From: Rhodospirillales bacterium
GTDB lineage: Bacteria; Pseudomonadota; Alphaproteobacteria; Rhodospirillales; JANQFP01
DNA length: 45,833 nt
Reading direction: 5' to 3'
Assembly: GCA_028277795.1 (NCBI GenBank)
Contig: JANQFP010000139.1
Span: 1-45,833 of the forward strand
Shown piece after piece: positions 1,266 to 19,545 of this stretch. The notes under the pieces are model-generated. The model searched no databases. It saw only the letters and a list, made by a program, of their open reading frames with translations, and had not been told where the DNA came from. The translations under genes were made by a program, and so were the position numbers. Every line of letters begins with the position of its first letter. The first letter of the stretch is position 1.

Positions 1266-4117
1266 GACACCGCGCCGTGGTGACGGACCGCGTCGGCGCA
1301 GCGGGCGCACAGCGTCGGATGGTCGCCGTCGCTCCCCACTTCGTCCAGGACCTTCCAACAGCGCTCGCACTTGCCGCCGGCCGCCTTGGCGAACACGACA
1401 CCCACATCGGCCACCTCGGGCAGGGTCTGGGCGTCGGCCGGCGGCGCCCCCTCGGTCAGGGTGAGGCCCGACGTGATGCAGATGTCGGCCATGTCGAGGC
1501 CGGCCACGGCATCCAGGTCGGCGCGCGGGGCGTGGACCACGGGATGGGCCTCGAGGCTTGACCCGATGGTCTTTTCCGCCCGCTGGACCTCCAGGGCCTT
1601 GGTCACCACCCGGCGCACCGTCCGCACCCGCTCCCAGCGGGCCGCCAAGGCGTCGTCCCGCCAGTCATTCGGGACCTCCGGGAACAGTCGCATGTGGACG
1701 CTTTCGGAGTTGTCGGGGTGGCGGGCCAGCCACGCCTCCTCGGCGGTGAAGCAGATGAACGGCGCCAGCCAGGCGGTGAGGCAGTCGAACAGGTGGTCGA
1801 GCACCGTCCGCGCCGCCCGCCGCCGTGGCGAATCGGCGCGGTCGCAGTAGAGGCTGTCCTTGCGCACGTCGAAATAGAAGGCCGACAGGTCGACGGCACA
1901 GAACTGATGCAGTTCGGTGAACAGCGGGTGGAAGTGGAAGTCGTGACACGCCTCGCGCACGAGGCGATCCAGCTCCCACAGGCGGTGCAGGACCCAGCGC
2001 TCCAGCTCCGGCATCTCCGCCACCGGCAGACGCTCGCCATCGTCGAAGCCGCTGAGGTTTCCCAGCAGGAACCGCAGGGTGTTGCGCAGGCGCCGGTACA
2101 CGTCGGCGTGCTGCTTGATGATCTCGGGGCCGATGCGCAGGTCTTCCGAATAGTCGGAGCCGACCACCCACAGGCGCAGGATGTCGGCACCGTGCTGGTC
2201 GACCACGTCCTGGGGCGACACGATGTTGCCCAGGGACTTGGACATCTTCTGGCCGTCCTCGCCCATGACGAAGCCGTGGGTGAGCACCGCGTCGTAGGGC
2301 GCGCGGCCGCGGGTGCCGCAGGACTCCAGCAACGAGGAATGGAACCAGCCGCGGTGCTGGTCTGTGCCTTCCAGGTACAGCGACGCGGGCCACTGCAGGT
2401 CGGGCCGGACCTCCAGGACGAATCCGTGGGTGCACCCGGATTCGAACCAGACGTCCAGGATGTCCATGACCTGCTCGTAGTCGTCCGGGTCGTATTCGGG
2501 AGACAGGAAGCGGCCCGGCGGCGAGGAATACCAGGTATCGGCGCCCTCCTGGCGCACGGCGTCGACGATGCGCTCGAGCACTGCCGGGTCGCGCAGGGGC
2601 TCGCCGCTCTTCTTGTCGACGAACACGGTGATGGGCACCCCCCAGGCGCGCTGGCGCGAGACGCACCAGTCGGGCCGGGTCTCGATCATGCCGTACAGGC
2701 GGTTGCGCCCCGAGCCGGGCACGAAGCGGGTGTCGTCGATGGCCTTCAGCGCCCGTTCCCGCAGCCCCGTCTTCTCCATGCTGATGAACCATTGGGGGGT
2801 GTTGCGGAAGATCAGGGGCGACTTGGACCGCCAGGAATGGGGGTAGCTGTGGACCAGTTGCTGGGTGGCCAGCAGGGCGCCGGTCCCGTCGAGCGCCTCG
2901 ACGACGGCGGCGTTGGCGGGGAACCGGCTCTTGCCGCGTTCGCGGAACTCCAGCACCGGCACGCCGGCGAACAGGCCCACGTGGTCTACGAAGCGGCCGT
3001 CCGGCCCCACCATCTCGGGCACCGGGACCCCGTGCTCCATGCCCAGCTCCCAGTCCTCCTGGCCGTGGCTGGGGGCGATGTGGACGAACCCCGAGCCGGT
3101 GTCCACGTCGACGAAGCCGGCCGGCAGCAGGCGCACGTCGAATCCGTAGTACTCGGCGTCGGCGTCGCGCAGGGGGTGGCGGCAGGTGTGCCCCGCCAGC
3201 TCCGCCCCCTTGAGACGACGGACGATGTCGTGGGCCGCGATCCCGGCGGCGGCCGCGACCTCGGGCATCAGGGCCTCGGCCAGCACCAGCTTTTCGCCGG
3301 TCCGGGCACGGCTGTCCTCGGCGGTCTCGGTGACCCGGATGACCACGTAGTCGATACCCTCGCCGTAGGCCACCGCGCGGTTGCCGGGGATGGTCCACGG
3401 CGTGGTGGTCCAGATCACCACCGAGGCGTCCACCAGATCCTCAGAGGGCGGATCGACCAGCGGGAAGCGGACGAAGATGGTGGTCGACGTGTGGTCGTAG
3501 TACTCGACCTCGGCCTCCGCCAGCGCCGTCTTCTCGACCACCGACCACAGGACCGGCTTGGCGCCCTTGTACAGCGATCCGTCCATGAGGAACCGCCCGA
3601 GCTCGCCGACGATGCGGGCTTCGGCGTCGAAGGACATGGTGGTGTAGGGCGAGTCCCAGTCGCCGATCACGCCCAGACGCTTGAACTCCTCGCGCTGGAC
3701 GCCGATCCAGGTGTCGGCGAAGTCGCGGCATTCCTTGCGGATCTGTTCGACGGGGACATCGTCCTTGTCCTTCCCCGCCTCCATGTACTGCTCCTCGATC
3801 TTCCACTCGATGGGCAGGCCGTGGCAGTCCCAGCCGGGGACATAGTTGGAGTCCTTGCCCAGCATCTGCTGGGAGCGGCTGATCACGTCCTTGAGGATCT
3901 TGTTCAGCGCATGGCCGATGTGCAGGTGGCCGTTGGCGTAGGGCGGCCCGTCATGAAGGATAAACTTCTCGCGCCCCTTGGCCGCCTCGCGCTGGCGGCG
4001 GTAGAGGTCCATGGCCTCCCAACGGGCCAGGGTCTCGGGCTCGCGGCGGGGCAGGCCGGCCTTCATGGGGAACCCGGTTCGGGGCAGGAAGACCGTGGAT
4101 TTGTAGTCGGCGCTCAT
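1262..4117 (-). CDS. ileS: isoleucyl-tRNA synthetase
   Basis: A 951-residue class I aminoacyl-tRNA synthetase that charges tRNA-Ile and edits misactivated valine. The HIGH signature reads GHLHIGHALN near residue 65, and the KMSKS loop reads GQKMSKSLGN near residue 620. The large insertion between them is the CP1 editing domain. The C-terminus carries the zinc-binding CERCW...CARC motif, which marks the bacterial IleS1 type. Length is normal. It starts with ATG at 4117 and is the first gene of ileS-lspA-bamF. The roughly 200-base space to ribF holds a candidate promoter and a GC-rich leader containing the palindrome GGGACCGGTCCC (4177-4188). Confidence 0.97.
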   Translation of the reverse strand: MSADYKSTVFLPRTGFPMKAGLPRREPETLARWEAMDLYRRQREAAKGREKFILHDGPPYANGHLHIGHALNKILKDVISRSQQMLGKDSNYVPGWDCHGLPIEWKIEEQYMEAGKDKDDVPVEQIRKECRDFADTWIGVQREEFKRLGVIGDWDSPYTTMSFDAEARIVGELGRFLMDGSLYKGAKPVLWSVVEKTALAEAEVEYYDHTSTTIFVRFPLVDPPSEDLVDASVVIWTTTPWTIPGNRAVAYGEGIDYVVIRVTETAEDSRARTGEKLVLAEALMPEVAAAAGIAAHDIVRRLKGAELAGHTCRHPLRDADAEYYGFDVRLLPAGFVDVDTGSGFVHIAPSHGQEDWELGMEHGVPVPEMVGPDGRFVDHVGLFAGVPVLEFRERGKSRFPANAAVVEALDGTGALLATQQLVHSYPHSWRSKSPLIFRNTPQWFISMEKTGLRERALKAIDDTRFVPGSGRNRLYGMIETRPDWCVSRQRAWGVPITVFVDKKSGEPLRDPAVLERIVDAVRQEGADTWYSSPPGRFLSPEYDPDDYEQVMDILDVWFESGCTHGFVLEVRPDLQWPASLYLEGTDQHRGWFHSSLLESCGTRGRAPYDAVLTHGFVMGEDGQKMSKSLGNIVSPQDVVDQHGADILRLWVVGSDYSEDLRIGPEIIKQHADVYRRLRNTLRFLLGNLSGFDDGERLPVAEMPELERWVLHRLWELDRLVREACHDFHFHPLFTELHQFCAVDLSAFYFDVRKDSLYCDRADSPRRRAARTVLDHLFDCLTAWLAPFICFTAEEAWLARHPDNSESVHMRLFPEVPNDWRDDALAARWERVRTVRRVVTKALEVQRAEKTIGSSLEAHPVVHAPRADLDAVAGLDMADICITSGLTLTEGAPPADAQTLPEVADVGVVFAKAAGGKCERCWKVLDEVGSDGDHPTLCARCADAVRHHGAVS

Positions 4118-9267: not shown

Positions 9268-11313
9268 TCAGCGGAGGGCGGCGGCGATGTTGCCGCCGTC
9301 GACGGTGAGCACGGCGCCGGTGGTGCGGCGCGCACACGCCAAGTCGACGAAGGCGCGGGCCACGTCGTCCGCCGTGACTTCCCGGCCCAGCAGGTTGCCG
9401 GACATGTAGTCGGTCTCGCTGATCCCGCGGGCCTGGGACCGTGAGGCGATCATGTCGTCGGTGAGCAGGCCGGAGCGGATGCGGTCGGCGTTGACCGCAT
9501 TGGACCGGATGCCGTCGGCCCCGTAGTCCACCGCGTACTGGCGCATCAGGAACAGGGTGGCCGCCTTGGGCAGGCCGTAGGGCCCGAAGGCGGGCCCCGG
9601 GTTGATGGCCTGCTTGGAGGTGTTGAACAGCAGGCAACCGCCGGTGCCCTGGGCGCGCATGACCCGTACCGCGTGCCGGGCCACCGACTGATGGGCCCAG
9701 AAATTGAGCTCGAAGCTGCCCCGCAGGACGTCCTCGGACACGTCGGCGATGCGGCCCTGCCAGGCGGCGCCGGCATTGGACACCACGATGTCGACGCCGC
9801 CGTAGGCCTGGCATACGGCATCGAAGGCGGCACCCACGGCGTCGGCGTCGGTGACGTCGCAGACCACCGGCAGGCCTTTCACCGCCGCCGCAGCGCCCTC
9901 GACGCCGGCGACCACGTCGAGCACCGCCACCTCGGCGCCGGCGGCAGCCAAGGCGGCGGCTGTGGCCCGCCCGATGCCCGAGGCGCCGCCGGTCACCACG
10001 GCCACGTGGCGCGCCAGGGGCTTCTCCGCGCCCTTGCCCAATTTGGCCTGCTCCAGGGACCAGTACTCGATGTCGAACACATCGGGCTCGGGGATGACCC
10101 GGTAGCCGCCCAGGGCTTCGGCATCGGTGATGACGGCCACGTTGGTCTCGGCGATGTCGGCGGCGATGCGTGCGTCCTTGGCCGACGCGCCGATGCCGAA
10201 CAGGCCGAGCCCGGGGACCAGGATCACCCGCGGCGCCGTGTCGAGTTCCGTCTTCGGCACCGCTTGGTGGGCGTTGTTGCGGGCGAAATAGGCATGGTAG
10301 TCGGCCGCATAGGCGTCCACCGCCTGGCGCGCCGCGGCGGCGAACGCGTCCAGCCGGTCGGCCTCCGGCGCCGGCACCATGAGAGGCTTCTGCTTGGTGC
10401 GGATGACGTGATCGGGGGTGGCCGTTCCCTGCTGGCTGTAGCGCCCCAGGTCGGTGCCGCCGACGAAAGCCAGGATGTCGGGTCCGGTGCGGAAATCCAG
10501 GATCCAGCGTCCATAATTGCCGTCACCCCGATCGAGGGCACAGGCCCCGCGCAGGATGGGCGCCACCTCGGCCGCCGTCGCCAGGTGCTGGGGCAGCGGG
10601 GCAACCGCGAACACCGTGCGGCCCGCTCCGGCGATGCGCGCCTCGGCCAAGCTGACCATCTCGATCATCCGGTCATAGGCCTCGCGGGCCGTCTCACCGT
10701 AGGTGAAGATGCCGTGCTTGAGCAGGATCAGGCCCTCGGTGTCGGGGGCCTCCCGGTACACGTCGAGGACCGTCTTCGACAGGTCGAAACCCGGCATCAC
10801 GTAGGGCACCAGCGCCATGCGGTCGCCGTACACCTCCCGGCACAGGTCCTCGCCATGCTCGGTGTCGGTGAGCGCCACGACGGCGTTGGCGTGGGTGTGG
10901 TCGATGAACTTGTGGGGCAGGAAGGCGTGCAGCAGGGTTTCCACCGACGGGTTGGGGGCGGCGGCATCGAGCAGGTTGATGCGCTGGGCGTTGACCATCT
11001 CCTCGTCGCTCAGGTGCCCCACATCGGCCATGCGGCGCAGGGGCTCGAGCCGCACCGCCGGCAGCCCCGGCGGCTCGATGGTCGCCATGTCCCACCCCGA
11101 GCCCTTGACGCACAGCACCTCGACCTCGTCGCCGGCGACGTCGGCCATGACCGTCTTCACCGAGGTGTTGCCGCCGCCGTGCAGGACCAGCCGCGGCTCG
11201 CCACCGAGCAAGCGCGTGGTGTAGACCCGCAGGGCCAGGTCCTCGTTCACCCCTTGCGCCGCGTAACGCTCGACCGCCGCCTTGGCGTCGCTGTCGGACC
11301 AAAGGTTATCCAT
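9268..11313 (-). CDS. class II aldolase / short-chain dehydrogenase fusion
   Basis: A 681-residue two-domain protein. Residues about 15-390 form a class II (zinc) aldolase/adducin domain, with metal-ligand histidines in HTHAN (139, 141) and KHGIF (200). Residues about 435-681 form a classical NAD(P) short-chain dehydrogenase: TGGASGIG (441-448), NAG (513-515), Ser566 and YGLPK (Tyr579, Lys583). Similar fusions are annotated as rhamnulose-1-phosphate aldolase/lactaldehyde dehydrogenase. Here the neighbours are mtnA and mtnP, so a more likely substrate is methylthioribulose-1-phosphate or 5-deoxyribulose-1-phosphate, giving DHAP plus an aldehyde that the SDR domain would convert. A strong AGGAGGGG precedes the ATG. 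Substrate is inferred from context. Confidence 0.85.
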   Translation of the reverse strand: MDNLWSDSDAKAAVERYAAQGVNEDLALRVYTTRLLGGEPRLVLHGGGNTSVKTVMADVAGDEVEVLCVKGSGWDMATIEPPGLPAVRLEPLRRMADVGHLSDEEMVNAQRINLLDAAAPNPSVETLLHAFLPHKFIDHTHANAVVALTDTEHGEDLCREVYGDRMALVPYVMPGFDLSKTVLDVYREAPDTEGLILLKHGIFTYGETAREAYDRMIEMVSLAEARIAGAGRTVFAVAPLPQHLATAAEVAPILRGACALDRGDGNYGRWILDFRTGPDILAFVGGTDLGRYSQQGTATPDHVIRTKQKPLMVPAPEADRLDAFAAAARQAVDAYAADYHAYFARNNAHQAVPKTELDTAPRVILVPGLGLFGIGASAKDARIAADIAETNVAVITDAEALGGYRVIPEPDVFDIEYWSLEQAKLGKGAEKPLARHVAVVTGGASGIGRATAAALAAAGAEVAVLDVVAGVEGAAAAVKGLPVVCDVTDADAVGAAFDAVCQAYGGVDIVVSNAGAAWQGRIADVSEDVLRGSFELNFWAHQSVARHAVRVMRAQGTGGCLLFNTSKQAINPGPAFGPYGLPKAATLFLMRQYAVDYGADGIRSNAVNADRIRSGLLTDDMIASRSQARGISETDYMSGNLLGREVTADDVARAFVDLACARRTTGAVLTVDGGNIAAALR

Positions 11314-11416: not shown

Positions 11417-12511
11417 TCAGCGGTGTTCCGGATAGAGGTCCGCCAGCCCCTCGGCGGAGGCCGGGCAGACGCCGCGCTCGGTGATCAGGCCGGTGACCAG
11501 GCGCGCCGGCGTCACGTCGAAGGCATAGTTGGCGGCCGGTGTCCCGTCGGGCGTCACCGCCACGCTGACGATCTCGCCGCCGTCGGCCCGCCCGGTGACG
11601 TGGGTGACCTCGGAGGGGTCGCGCTCCTCGATGGGGACCTCGGCCAAGCCGTCGCGGATGGTCCAGTCGATGGTCGGCCCGGGCAGGGCCACGTAGAACG
11701 GCACGTTGTTGTCGGAGGCGGCCAGGGCCTTCAGGTAGGTGCCGATCTTGTTGCACACGTCGCCGGTGGCCGTGGTGCGGTCGGTGCCGGTGATGCACAG
11801 GTCCACCTGGCCGTGCTGCATCAGGTGGCCGCCGGCGTTGTCCACGATCACCGTGTGGGGCACGCCGTGGCGGCCCAGCTCCCAGGCGGTGAGCCCGTCG
11901 CCCTGGTTGCGCGGCCGGGTCTCGTCCACCCACACGTGGATGGGGATGCCGGCATCGTGGGCCTTGTAGACGGGCGCCAGAGCCGTGCCCCAGTCCACGG
12001 TCGCCAGCCACCCGGCATTGCAGTGGGTCAGCAGATCCACCCGGCCATTCCGGCCCTTGGCCTGCCACATGTCGCCGATCAGGGCGAGACCGTGGTCGCC
12101 GATGGCGCTGCAGATGGCCACGTCCTGATCGCAGATCTCGGCGGCGCGGGCGTAGGCGGCGGCGGTGCGCTCGGCCGGCGGCAGCGGCGCCAGCAGCGCC
12201 CGCATGTCGTCCAGCGCCCAGCGGAGGTTGACCGCCGTCGGCCGGGTCGCGATCAGGGTCTCGTAGGCCGCGCCCAGTCCGGCGTCCGAGGGGTCCTGGC
12301 GCATGGCCAGGGCGACGCCGTAGGCCGCCGTCACGCCGATCAGGGGGGCGCCCCGCACCAGCATGTCCTTGATGGCGCAGGCCGCCTCGGCGGCAGTGTC
12401 CAGGCGAACCGTGACGAACTCGTGGGGCAGCCGGGTCTGGTCGATGATCTCCACCGCCACCCCGTCGTCGGCCACCCAGATGGTGCGGTATGGGGTTCCG
12501 TCGACCTTCAT
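11417..12511 (-). CDS. mtnA: S-methyl-5-thioribose-1-phosphate isomerase
   Basis: A 364-residue cytoplasmic isomerase that converts methylthioribose-1-phosphate to methylthioribulose-1-phosphate in methylthioadenosine salvage. It belongs to the eIF2B-alpha/MtnA family. Typical stretches are [28 protein letters not shown] and [19 protein letters not shown], which includes the conserved catalytic-site Asp. I chose the ATG at 12511; the frame also opens with a TTG four codons upstream. It begins only four bases after the stop of the DUF4276 gene, so it appears to depend on read-through from mtnP and the inserted cassette. No mtnB, mtnC or mtnD is present in the window. Confidence 0.95.
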
Positions 12512-12515
12512 CGCC

Positions 12516-13142
12516 CTACCCAATCACCGACGGATAGACCATGTCGCCGGGCCGTCCGTTGTCCAATAGCCATTGCAGCAACGATTCGAGATGGCGGAAC
12601 GAGCGGCATTTCCGCCGTAGGCGATCGGGATCGATAGTGGCCGTGAACCGTGCCTGATCCAAGGTCGGCTTGTAGCGTCTCCCCGTCCTCATGAATCGGC
12701 TCAGCAACTCCTTGACCCCTCTCGGTTCCTCGTGATTGTCGTGCTGGCGCCAATCATCGAGACGCCAACCGTAGTTCGGGTAATCACGTGCGATGAAATC
12801 CAAGCAAGCCAGGAAGAACGCCTCGTATTCCCGCACAAACAAGCCCAGCCCTACTTTCTTCTCCGGCCCTAGCGCACGTAGACGTTCGGTCCAATCCATT
12901 GCGATATCCCTGGCGCAATGCTCGTCGGCATCAAGCAGAATGAGTACCGCGTCACCATCTCTTCTTAGAGCATAGGTCACGAACTTCTCTAATTCTCCTT
13001 GCCGGTTCAGTTTAACTACGTTTTGTTTGCGTATCGGGCTGGGAGTTGGAAATACAGCGTAGTCGGAAATCCGTCGAATCAGTTCGGGGACCGCTTCTGC
13101 ATCGCCAGGACCTTCGAGGATGAGAACAGGTCTCGACGCCAT
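12516..13142 (-). CDS. DUF4276 TOPRIM-like protein, partner of ABC ATPase
   Basis: A 208-residue protein of the DUF4276 type. Residues 8-20 ([13 protein letters not shown]) and 68-74 (ILLDADE) give the Glu and Asp-x-Asp pattern of a TOPRIM-like nuclease fold, and [11 protein letters not shown] (102-112) and the RSFRHLE segment (180-186) are typical of this family. Its ATG shares a base with the ATPase stop (TGATG), so the two are co-translated. TOPRIM plus ABC ATPase pairs occur in OLD and PARIS-type anti-phage systems. The gene is AT-richer than mtnA and mtnP on either side. Family call is fairly good; nuclease activity and defence role are inference. Confidence 0.75.
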
Positions 13143-14296
13143 CAGCCATGTAGCCCCTCGAAGGACATCAACTGCCCCAACGTGAACAGCTTGTCGCGAA
13201 CGGCTTCTTTCTGCGCCGCGGCGAGGGGGCGTGCCCGCGTTGCGCCGTCCTCGTATTCGACAGCGATGACTTGGTCTGGGTCGAACTGGTCCAGGAGTTC
13301 GGGGCTGTGAGTTGTCACCAGCACTTGTCGGGAATCGCTTACTTCTTTAATGGCGTCCGCGATCAAAGGCAGCACCCCAGGGTGGACGGTCAACTCCGGC
13401 TCCTCCAATGCGATGACCTCTGGTCCGGGGTCCTGGTACAAAGCGACCAGAATTCCGAGAATCCGAAGCGTCCCATCAGACATCTGATCTACGTCGAAGT
13501 AATGACCCTTTCCCTGCTCCGGTTTGATGAAAAACCGAGGAACGACATAACCGCCAAGTGCCTGGACCGTGACGTTTTCAAGATCGGGAACGACTCGCCT
13601 TAAAGCCGCAACGATCTCGTGCCTGGCCGCGCTTTTCCTTTTCGCACTCATTCTTTTCAGGATGGAAGCGATGTTGTCTCCGTGGGCTGTCAAGTGGGGT
13701 TCTGTGCTCGGCTTCTCAGGTTGCCGAAGCGTATTAGGAAAGATGGAATAGCTTTCAAAATCAGAGAATACCGCAGAAGAGAAAGGGGGGGCATGTTGTG
13801 ATGACATAAAGAGAATATCTTCATCTTCTCTAAACTTGAACGGACCATTTTGCCAATTTGCATTCACAGATTCGTTCTTATATCTAGAAAAATGAAGCTC
13901 CTTCAACTCTGACTCCTGTGGATCCATTATGAAGAAAGGGTAAGGACTCCTCCATCTCCCCTCTTCTCGATGGACTTTGTAAGAGTTTTCCGAAGAAGAA
14001 AGCGTAAAGCAAAACGAGTCTGCGGCCGTATCGTCTTGCTCTCTATGACGTACTTGCAATCCGACCGAGACATGATATGGCCTCGTCGGAGCCCACTGCC
14101 GGATGTTCTCGATGCCGTGTCGTTCCGTCACGGCCCAATCGAGCCCGTTTCTGAGAGCGTCGCGGACAAACTTGATGGCGTCGATAATATTGCTCTTCCC
14201 GGCGCCGTTGGGGCCAACGAATAGGGTCACAGGCCCCAACTCCAGGTCTAGGTCCTCAATGCTCCGGAAGTGCTGGATCGTAAGCTTGGTGATCAT
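13142..14296 (-). CDS. ABC/SMC-like AAA ATPase (OLD/AriA-like)
   Basis: A 384-residue ATPase with no membrane segment. Residues 1-40 contain KLTIQHFRSIEDLDLELG and the Walker A motif GPNGAGKS (28-35). The ABC-like signature is MSDGTLR (272-278), Walker B is VIALEEPE (294-301) and the switch histidine is TTHSPE (328-333). The arrangement matches RecF/OLD-type AAA_21 ATPases. The middle, residues 90-200, is variable and AT-rich in sequence. Start ATG is six bases after the mtnP stop. With the DUF4276 gene it looks like a split OLD nuclease. The substrate or trigger cannot be read from the sequence. Confidence 0.85.
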   Translation of the reverse strand: MITKLTIQHFRSIEDLDLELGPVTLFVGPNGAGKSNIIDAIKFVRDALRNGLDWAVTERHGIENIRQWAPTRPYHVSVGLQVRHREQDDTAADSFCFTLSSSENSYKVHREEGRWRSPYPFFIMDPQESELKELHFSRYKNESVNANWQNGPFKFREDEDILFMSSQHAPPFSSAVFSDFESYSIFPNTLRQPEKPSTEPHLTAHGDNIASILKRMSAKRKSAARHEIVAALRRVVPDLENVTVQALGGYVVPRFFIKPEQGKGHYFDVDQMSDGTLRILGILVALYQDPGPEVIALEEPELTVHPGVLPLIADAIKEVSDSRQVLVTTHSPELLDQFDPDQVIAVEYEDGATRARPLAAAQKEAVRDKLFTLGQLMSFEGLHG

Positions 14297-14302
14297 TCGC
14301 GA

Positions 14303-15190
<888 letters not shown>

Positions 15191-17480: not shown

Positions 17481-17767
17481 GAAAAGCCGTGTCGGAGTAT
17501 CACTCAGGAGCCGACGTTGGTATGAGTCAGCCAAATGTAGCGGTCTGACCCGTGCCGGACGTCAGGCAATCGTGGACTGGTCCCTCGTAGCGACGTATGT
17601 TCTCCCGACACGCTAATTAGATAACCGAATGAACATCCATAGCTTGTTTTGGGCCATGAACCGAACGACCACCGTCTCAAATAACACTAATCTGCCACAA
17701 TCGCCGTACGACCGTTCATGCGGATCACCTAACATGTGGTCGGGCTCAAGGGGCGGTAGAATCTTTC
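17481..17767. other. AT-richer gene-free interval
   Basis: No supported gene or RNA. Base composition drops visibly from the surrounding GC-rich DNA from about 17484 onward and stays lower to about 18980, which marks the left part of an accessory stretch. No clear promoter hexamer pair was found for the gene starting at 17768. Confidence 0.5.
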
Positions 17768-18385
17768 GTGAGTGATAGTCCAAAGAATTTGTGGGATCGC
17801 GCTCTATCGTATCTCAGCAACGGCTTCGTGCTGTTATTGGTCGGGTCCCTGATTACCTCGGTTCTTGTCCCGCGATATCAAGCGGCACGCGACGCCGAGG
17901 AAAGGCGAACGGCTCTGATGCGCGAATCGTTTTCTCAGTTTCTCCTTTATTCGAACTCCATCTGGGAAGAATACTACTTGATGTTTCCGCTAATCCAGGA
18001 GTCGTCCATCGACAAAACGCGTTACAACGAATACCTTCGGGATATCGGCGACATTAAACTGAAGCGCTACAATGCCTATGCGCGCGTACAATCACTTGCG
18101 ATTGCCTTCCGCGACGAGGAGGGGCGGACAGACGTCGAAGATTCCGTCCGCGCCTACGCCGTGGAGGTGAACGGGGTTTCGGCCAAGATCGACGTATGGC
18201 TCCGCGATCTTTATTGTTTCCCTAATCAGTGTTTTTCCGCGGAGGGCCTCGGCACGGACATCGATTTCAACTCCTACAATACCTTCCTCAAGGTGGCGCA
18301 ATCAATGCAAACACTCAAGGCAAGAGCCGAGGAGGTTTCGACGCTGATGGTATCGCGTTTAGAGAAAGGAGGTGCAAACCGATGA
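17768..18385 (+). CDS. unknown protein with one N-terminal membrane helix
   Basis: A 205-residue protein I do not recognise. Residues about 17-35 (SNGFVLLLVGSLITSVLVP) form one membrane helix. The rest is mostly helical and charged, with an aromatic-rich piece (SIWEEYYLMFPL) and a pair of cysteines five residues apart (YCFPNQCF). If the N-terminus stays cytoplasmic the bulk would face the periplasm. It starts with GTG at 17768. The stop overlaps the ATG of the next gene (ATGA). Codon use is more AT-tolerant than in neighbouring housekeeping genes, pointing to horizontal acquisition. Confidence 0.65.
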   Translation: MSDSPKNLWDRALSYLSNGFVLLLVGSLITSVLVPRYQAARDAEERRTALMRESFSQFLLYSNSIWEEYYLMFPLIQESSIDKTRYNEYLRDIGDIKLKRYNAYARVQSLAIAFRDEEGRTDVEDSVRAYAVEVNGVSAKIDVWLRDLYCFPNQCFSAEGLGTDIDFNSYNTFLKVAQSMQTLKARAEEVSTLMVSRLEKGGANR

Positions 18386-18879
18386 GAGTCAACATTTCGT
18401 CAGTATTGTGGCTGGCTGCAGTGTCTGCAATCACCACCATGGTGGTGTTGTCTCCCGTGTTGGCGAACGGCAGATCGCCTGGCGTGCGACTGTTGGATGT
18501 AGATGTTAAGGCGACCTGCGTCGACGCGACGGATACCGAGCATGCAATTGTTCGAGCGAAGATTGACGGAAAACGCGCGCTGACGATCAAAGCCGGGATC
18601 GCTGAGATAGAGCTTCCACTTGCGCAGGCTCGCGTAGTTTCCTTCCTGCCGCCTGAACAAGCGAGCGGCGACTATCTGGCCGCGACGCTTGATTTTGAGG
18701 GCAATCACGAAGAAAGCATGGTTAAGGTGAAGAAGGAAGGGCAGGCCGTAATGCTGAGCGGCTTCGACTCCTCTGGACTAAAGTTGCGAGTTCCGCTCAT
18801 GCAGTGCAAGTCAATTTCCTTTGAGCCAATGATTACGGGTGGCAGCACGCCTTCTGTAGCTCCTGTCTCCGCCAACTAA
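18382..18879 (+). CDS. unknown exported protein
   Basis: A 165-residue protein with an N-terminal signal peptide (VLWLAAVSAITTMVVLSPVLA, about residues 8-28). The mature part is short, beta-strand-like and contains two cysteines (ATCVDAT and LMQCKS) that could form a disulfide. The ATG at 18382 follows an excellent AAAGGAGGTG and overlaps the stop of the preceding gene, so the two are translated together and may form a membrane plus periplasmic pair. No known family recognised. AT-richer than its surroundings. Confidence 0.7.
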   Translation: MRVNISSVLWLAAVSAITTMVVLSPVLANGRSPGVRLLDVDVKATCVDATDTEHAIVRAKIDGKRALTIKAGIAEIELPLAQARVVSFLPPEQASGDYLAATLDFEGNHEESMVKVKKEGQAVMLSGFDSSGLKLRVPLMQCKSISFEPMITGGSTPSVAPVSAN

Positions 18880-19545
18880 AGCATCGTTCACCAGGATTTC
18901 TCCGCTTCTGGTGATGCGCAACCAAATGCGGCATTCGTCCGGTGCCAAGCGGTCGCGCTCTCTTCGATCGATTCAATGACGAGAGAGAAATTTGCCACGC
19001 CTACGGTCGCTAATGGCTATGGGCGCGCATTCGGGGAAGGGCAGAGGGCTTCCGCCCTGCCCCAGTGATCAGACCTCGATCTGCCCGGCGATGGCGAGGG
19101 CGTCGTCCGCCTCGAATCCGAGGGACCGGAGCCGCTGCGTCAGGAACGCCGAAGCCGTGTCCATCCATGTCCATCCGTGCCGCCGGATACCGCCGCTGTC
19201 CGGGGCAAGGCGGCCGCCAGAAAGGTTGATTATTCCTATATAATGTGATAATGTTCCTTTTTCGGGTTTGCCGAGACTGGGCGGTGGTGGTCGCAGCCGC
19301 GGTGTCGCAAAAAGGAAGGGGCGCATCACATTGCTTTCAAATCATTTTTCCGGGTCAGGCTGACATATGCCGACATCCGCTGACAGATCCGTGGCAGGCC
19401 GCCGTTCCTATCAGGTCTCGGGCCGAATTCGCGTGATGAGTCAACCCGCAAGCGCCGCCGGCACGGATGAACACCGGTGAGCAAAGCGTCGCGGACGTCA
19501 GCGCCGGTGTCGCATGCCCGCGTCCGCCGTTCCGGTGTCCCGGGA
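18880..19545. other. 666-base gene-poor interval with gene remnant
   Basis: A CACCAG / CTGGTG hairpin lies soon after 18880 and may end the preceding operon. On the minus strand, 19069-19164 encodes a 31-residue piece (starting MDTASAFLTQRLRSLG) with strong GC at third positions, which looks like the tail of a lost gene. Around 19220-19260 there is a very AT-rich patch with TATAAT at 19239-19244 but no matching -35. I can support no complete gene here. Confidence 0.45.

Follow-up and report, generated by a model that had tools for sequence, protein, structure and literature searches.

A HEC-01-family ATPase/DUF4276 gene pair inserted at a repeatedly occupied junction of the mtnP-mtnA operon in a Rhodospirillales bacterium

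The window analyzed here is a 45,833-nt stretch of DNA from a Rhodospirillales bacterium. On its minus strand, mtnP is followed by a gene for an ABC-type ATPase, a gene for a DUF4276 protein, and mtnA, in that order and with very little DNA between them (Table 1). An earlier note on this DNA, made from the sequence alone, had given the coordinates, the spacings, and the coupling of the two central genes, and all of these proved exact to the base. The two central genes (here called the cassette) are also AT-richer than the genes around them, as had been noticed: GC content is 0.53/0.555 in the cassette versus 0.71/0.72 in mtnP/mtnA, and GC3 is 0.605/0.617 versus 0.966/0.953. Scanning the region, with promoter detection confined to the sigma-70-like consensus, revealed no promoter- or terminator-like site.

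Table 1. Features of the cassette and its host operon (window coordinates)
Feature	Position	Strand	Basis
mtnP, S-methyl-5'-thioadenosine phosphorylase, upstream gene of host operon	14303..15187	-	NCBIfam PRK08931, 525 bits; TIGR01694, 304 bits
Spacer, mtnP stop to ATPase ATG, 6 nt	14297..14302	-	Sequence
OLD/Rad50-type ABC ATPase, HEC-01A, 384 aa	13142..14296	-	PADLOC, Pfam AAA_21, motifs, AlphaFold model
TGATG stop/start overlap coupling the ATPase and DUF4276 genes, one shared base	13140..13144	-	Sequence; likewise TGATG in G515 and G602
DUF4276 protein, HEC-01B, Toprim-like putative nuclease, 208 aa	12516..13142	-	PF14103, PDLC04196, motifs, model
Spacer, DUF4276 stop to mtnA ATG (12511), 4 nt	12512..12515	-	Sequence
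mtnA, S-methyl-5-thioribose-1-phosphate isomerase, downstream gene of host operon	11417..12511	-	TIGR00512, 402 bits

Directly after mtnA, the minus strand encodes a class II aldolase fused to a short-chain dehydrogenase (positions 9268 to 11313; PF00596 + PF13561), and a fusion gene of this kind also follows mtnA in several relatives. It may serve as the 5-methylthioribulose-1-phosphate aldolase and dehydrogenase of a DHAP-type MTA shunt. On the other side of the operon, GC content drops locally to ~0.52 within positions 17500 to 18900 (at 17500 to 17999), a region that holds open reading frames of ~200 aa at 17768 to 18385 and 18280 to 18879 with no Pfam matches.

The ATPase matched Pfam AAA_21 (2e-33) and, over residues 2 to 382, the PADLOC HEC-01A model PDLC04178 (E = 1.8e-91; 305 bits); the PADLOC models for AriA (118 bits) and AbiLi (87 bits) were matched as well. 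Its motifs comprise Walker A (K34/S35), the signature SDGTLR (273 to 278), Walker B (E298/E299), and H330, and an alignment of 64 relatives keeps the Walker A Lys, the signature Ser and Gly, the catalytic Glu, and the H-loop. The AlphaFold model (pLDDT 92.7) aligned to SMC, Rad50, and PtuA heads with VIA-align Z values of 20 to 22, and its Foldseek matches also included T. scotoductus OLD and GajA. By motifs and predicted fold, the protein is an SMC/Rad50/OLD-type ABC head with its motifs intact.

The product of the coupled gene matched PF14103 (1.6e-14) and, over residues 6 to 193, the PADLOC HEC-01B model PDLC04196 (E = 2.6e-33; 113.7 bits). The motif 1 Glu and the motif 2 DxD (71/73) of Toprim domains are present, and across 69 DUF4276 proteins E10 is found in 68, D71 in all 69, and D73 in 63 (Glu or Asn in the rest); the invariance of E105 and E107 in the same alignment is partly built in, since the scan pattern included both. 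For the AlphaFold model (pLDDT 89.8), the best fold matches were the OLD Toprim domains 6nk8/6njv (Z 9.1; rmsd 4.0 to 4.6; 168 to 173 residues), tied with an atypical asparaginase that is not a Toprim protein (Z 8.9; 127 residues), so the fold alone cannot settle the assignment. Foldseek alone returned nothing for this model at E < 0.001, and a search of the PDB for sequence relatives of the DUF4276 family gave none beyond chance. The protein had no match in 50,697 phage records; two distant matches lie on Streptomyces plasmids and one distant match on a viral contig. Taking motif, fold, and partner together, we infer that the DUF4276 protein is likely a Toprim nuclease. Chance does not explain this pair of reading frames, since both match profiles, their ABC and Toprim-type motifs are intact, and the same order recurs in a second genome (G515, see below).

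With the HEC-01A model matched by the ATPase and the HEC-01B model by the adjacent, TGATG-coupled gene, the cassette is, by its profile matches, a member of PADLOC HEC-01, an already catalogued candidate defense system. HEC stands for Hma-embedded candidate, and these candidate defense systems come from guilt-by-embedding (PMC12988326, PMC10855318). Activity has been reported for some HECs, e.g., HEC-06, and HEC-01 is not named among those (PMC12988326); in the literature searched here, no paper mentioned DUF4276, and none mentioned both HEC-01 and PADLOC. The cassette agrees with HEC-01 in matching both models (305 and 114 bits), in gene order, adjacency, and coupling, and in being embedded in another operon. 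It differs in that its host operon is metabolic rather than Hma, restriction-modification (R-M), or BREX, and the moderate score against the HEC-01B model marks it as a divergent subtype.

The earlier note had called the cassette a split OLD/PARIS-like module, and of this description the pairing of an ATPase with a Toprim-like protein on two genes stands, while neither PARIS nor a canonical OLD protein fits. In the profile search that it had suggested, AAA_21, DUF4276, and AriA were matched but the AriB model was not. PARIS, in which both genes are needed and Ocr is the trigger, is detected by AAA_15/AAA_21 plus DUF4435 (PMC9122126). Like the cassette, it consists of an adjacent OLD-type ABC ATPase and Toprim-like nuclease (AriA and the DUF4435 Toprim RNase AriB), and the AAA_21 and AriA matches reported above fit its ATPase half. 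However, the partner here is a DUF4276 protein that hits only PF14103 at E ≤ 1 and has no AriB among its PADLOC matches; without a DUF4435 partner, the cassette is not PARIS. Class 1 and class 2 OLD proteins (P2 Old, Gabija GajA) share the ATPase superfamily, and OLD Toprim domains are the best structural matches of the partner, but the ATPase and Toprim-like parts lie here on separate genes with a stop between them and with no GajB helicase alongside, which rules out the canonical single polypeptide. Separate ATPase and Toprim genes have been termed class 4 OLD, for PARIS (PMC10568477). A place in MADS was likewise rejected: the ATPase matches mad3 at 110 to 127 bits, but its 126.7 bits compare with an NCBIfam cut-off of 420, mad4 reaches only E = 0.015, and other mad genes are absent, the flanks being mtnP and mtnA only. 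WonAB, which aborts infection (PMC12137116), is also a two-gene system of an OLD-ABC ATPase and a nuclease effector, but its described relatives are pairs whose nuclease has a restriction-enzyme fold instead of Toprim.

The annotation of AAA_21 as "putative AbiEii toxin" and the AbiLi match of 87 bits raise the question of an AbiEii/AbiL-like toxin-antitoxin pair kept by addiction, and WonB alone is indeed toxic (PMC12137116). We consider this reading highly improbable, given that the HEC-01 match, at 305 bits, is far stronger, that deleting either single gene of PARIS is nontoxic (PMC9122126), and that the locus has no small antitoxin-like gene.

Querying 84,980 species genomes with five aligned family members yielded 79 loci (a single-sequence query of the genome contig collection had found no relative), spanning Proteobacteria, Chloroflexi, Planctomycetota, Actinobacteria, Verrucomicrobia, Acidobacteria, and others. 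Pairing of the two genes is near-obligate: in 77 of the 79 relatives, the gene immediately upstream, on the same strand, encodes a homologous ATPase. In 15/74 loci, the pair has same-strand genes on both sides at distances below 60 nt. Neighbors checked with PADLOC, at gaps of a few nucleotides, include HsdR of type I R-M (L168), PglZ of BREX (L174), and HmaC (L133), and the commonest neighbor family is that of type I specificity subunits. This survey agrees with a report that BREX operons contain OLD-ABC/TOPRIM pairs that act as backup effectors (PMC12839542). Together with the HEC-01 match, the embedding of relatives in R-M, BREX, and Hma operons upholds the anti-phage kinship that had been proposed for the cassette.

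The same distribution bears on whether the pair has a housekeeping role in DNA or RNA processing (RecF/RecN/Rad50-like repair) rather than in immunity. SMC and Rad50 heads are the best structural matches of the ATPase, and one archaeal ATPase of the OLD family is reported to function in progression of the cell cycle, not in antiviral defense (PMC12796447). Against such a role, presence is patchy (65 HEC-01A-like loci in 44 of 317 genomes of the order), relatives are scattered over phyla, and embedding in restriction operons is repeated; a housekeeping pair is therefore distinctly unlikely. The window's own genome holds a second OLD-type pair on another contig (C158, L111), with a HEC-01A-like ATPase at 1319 to 2554 (PDLC04184; 183 bits) and an overlapping partner gene at 2508 to 3149 whose 213-aa product has no Pfam or PADLOC match.

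Among 100 genomes of the same order with mtnP and mtnA on one contig and strand, the gap between the two genes is at most 60 nt in 56, many of them checked directly, and a junction of 13 nt with nothing in it is present in G016 and G037, the two genomes closest to the window by mtnP+mtnA. Since the junction is empty in most relatives and the composition of the cassette is deviant (GC3 of ~0.6 versus 0.95), the cassette is an insertion into the mtnP-mtnA operon, in line with the earlier note; the four-gene arrangement is not common to the order. Among the refuting observations that the note had named, none of those that could be checked here was made. The survey of related genomes that had been proposed also turned up HEC-01 pairs at this junction in four other genomes, all confirmed on DNA. 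In one of them, an alphaproteobacterial metagenome-assembled genome (G515; contig JADFZP010000031.1), the pair is of the window's subtype (52% identical for the ATPase and 54% for the DUF4276 protein) and both genes are open. The other three (G602, G604, and G038) carry a second subtype, with ATPases 27 to 28% identical to that of the window and 85 to 92% identical to each other, and with a DUF4276 partner by Pfam; tested for G602, this subtype scored 520 bits against HEC-01A and 242 bits against HEC-01B. In G515 and G602, the ATPase and DUF4276 genes meet at TGATG, as they do in the window. At the downstream end, the last stop overlaps the mtnA start codon (ATGA) in all four other genomes, compared with a distance of 4 nt in the window. 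The mtnA genes of the order usually begin with ATGA, so an upstream frame that enters this start in the right register ends there.

In a tree of mtnP+mtnA, the window groups with G016 and G037, and G515 groups with G535 (gap of 112 nt); a sister relationship of the window and G515 was rejected, if modestly (AU P = 0.037), and an mtnP-only tree was poorly resolved. Because the two carriers stand apart in the mtnP+mtnA tree, the first subtype was probably gained twice. Identity between cassette pairs does not rise at the flanks, leaving no trace of recent exchange through flanking genes; co-transfer of the whole operon between the window's genome and G515 was rejected on this flat identity toward the junction and on the same AU result. 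In the topology of the mtnP+mtnA tree, G602/G604 and G038 did not group, and the second subtype may represent two gains or a single one, perhaps ancient and inherited within one family. HEC-01 has thus entered the junction in at least two, probably three, lineages and as two divergent subtypes.

HEC-01 pairs are one kind of cargo among several at this site. More than 400 nt lie between mtnP and mtnA in 36 of the 100 junctions, and when the conserved rplY-pth junction of the same relatives served as a control, inserts of that size were present in 9/48 genomes at mtnP-mtnA versus 0/48 at rplY-pth (Fisher P = 0.0026). Other cargo in the examples fetched comprises GNAT acetyltransferases, a PEMT-type methyltransferase, DUF1330, a glycosyltransferase, and an MCP-type protein, several of them tightly packed. 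Five of the 65 HEC-01A-like loci in the 317 genomes of the order lie at mtnP-mtnA, compared to 0.02 expected if there were ~3,500 equal junctions, and under this crude null of equal junctions, whose number is assumed, the probability of three or more arrivals independent of one another is near 1e-6. The best reading is that, within this order, the mtnP-mtnA junction acts as a permissive slot for cargo, reused by HEC-01 pairs and by unrelated genes.

Individual junctions show further variety. GNAT, PEMT-like, and DUF1330 genes occur in varying combinations, mostly at a GC content of ~0.5 to 0.65 (L101 to L108, L193, L195, L202, and L209), and several of the GNAT genes run into mtnA with an ATGA overlap. 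One junction (G673; L096, 3792 to 5492) holds a 566-aa open reading frame with a GC content of 0.52 and no Pfam match.

A slot that accepts many unrelated genes, and a cassette whose composition is far from that of its host, might suggest a neutral or decaying passenger, foreign DNA tolerated because mtnA expression is unbroken. This is unlikely in view of how well the pair is kept. Neither frame is broken and every catalytic motif is present, G515 keeps both genes open at 52 to 54% identity, G602, G604, and G038 retain the pair at 85 to 92% ATPase identity, and the stop/start coupling is kept at the joints.

The earlier note had also speculated that the cassette might be tied to its host genes through phage SAM lyases, which yield MTA. 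The idea is not absurd, since phage SAMases do yield MTA (the T3 enzyme is an anti-restriction enzyme; PMC7877911) and the module sits elsewhere in SAM-dependent defense operons (type I R-M, BREX, and Hma); moreover, two divergent HEC-01 subtypes lie at exactly mtnP-mtnA in at least two, probably three, lineages. The pair would then monitor or use MTA/SAM status, as a guard beside MTA salvage that senses or survives a phage SAMase. Nevertheless, 78 of the 79 relatives are not near mtn genes, the sole exception in the genome scan being G515 of the same order; the junction also holds the unrelated genes listed above; and in most genomes of the order, mtnP-mtnA lacks the pair. The proposed tie is consequently not supported, and we regard functional coupling as very unlikely. 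There is a very slight chance that the pair was repeatedly and independently recruited to the operon for a function tied to SAM/MTA, for example as a SAM-lyase guard with MtnP/MtnA modulating its trigger, but a recurrent landing place does not by itself show a functional link with salvage. Most likely, cargo in the slot serves itself and not salvage.

The reading we favor, and hold to be probable, is that the cassette is a HEC-01-family, abortive-type OLD-ATPase/Toprim defense pair that uses a permissive operon slot for its expression. By analogy with related families, the ABC ATPase would act as a sensor-clamp whose dimer keeps the nuclease inactive until an infection cue releases or activates it. 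The Toprim nuclease would then cut tRNA (as in PARIS) or DNA and so stop phage spread, as PARIS/WonAB-type systems do. The pair would be coexpressed with the salvage genes from a promoter upstream of mtnP, as no internal promoter- or terminator-like site was recognized, and the tight stop/start spacing would keep mtnA translated.

The HEC-01 family itself is already catalogued; what is new is that one metabolic operon junction is repeatedly occupied by it. Defense genes are usually sought in defense islands, prophages, and known hotspots, and here a candidate pair lies in a metabolic operon. The junction can be tested as a case in which an operon slot supplies immune cargo with ready expression, and it is a cheap place to seek undescribed defense genes in this order. 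The data suggest that being embedded is a property of the HEC-01 module as such, not evidence on the function of the host operon.
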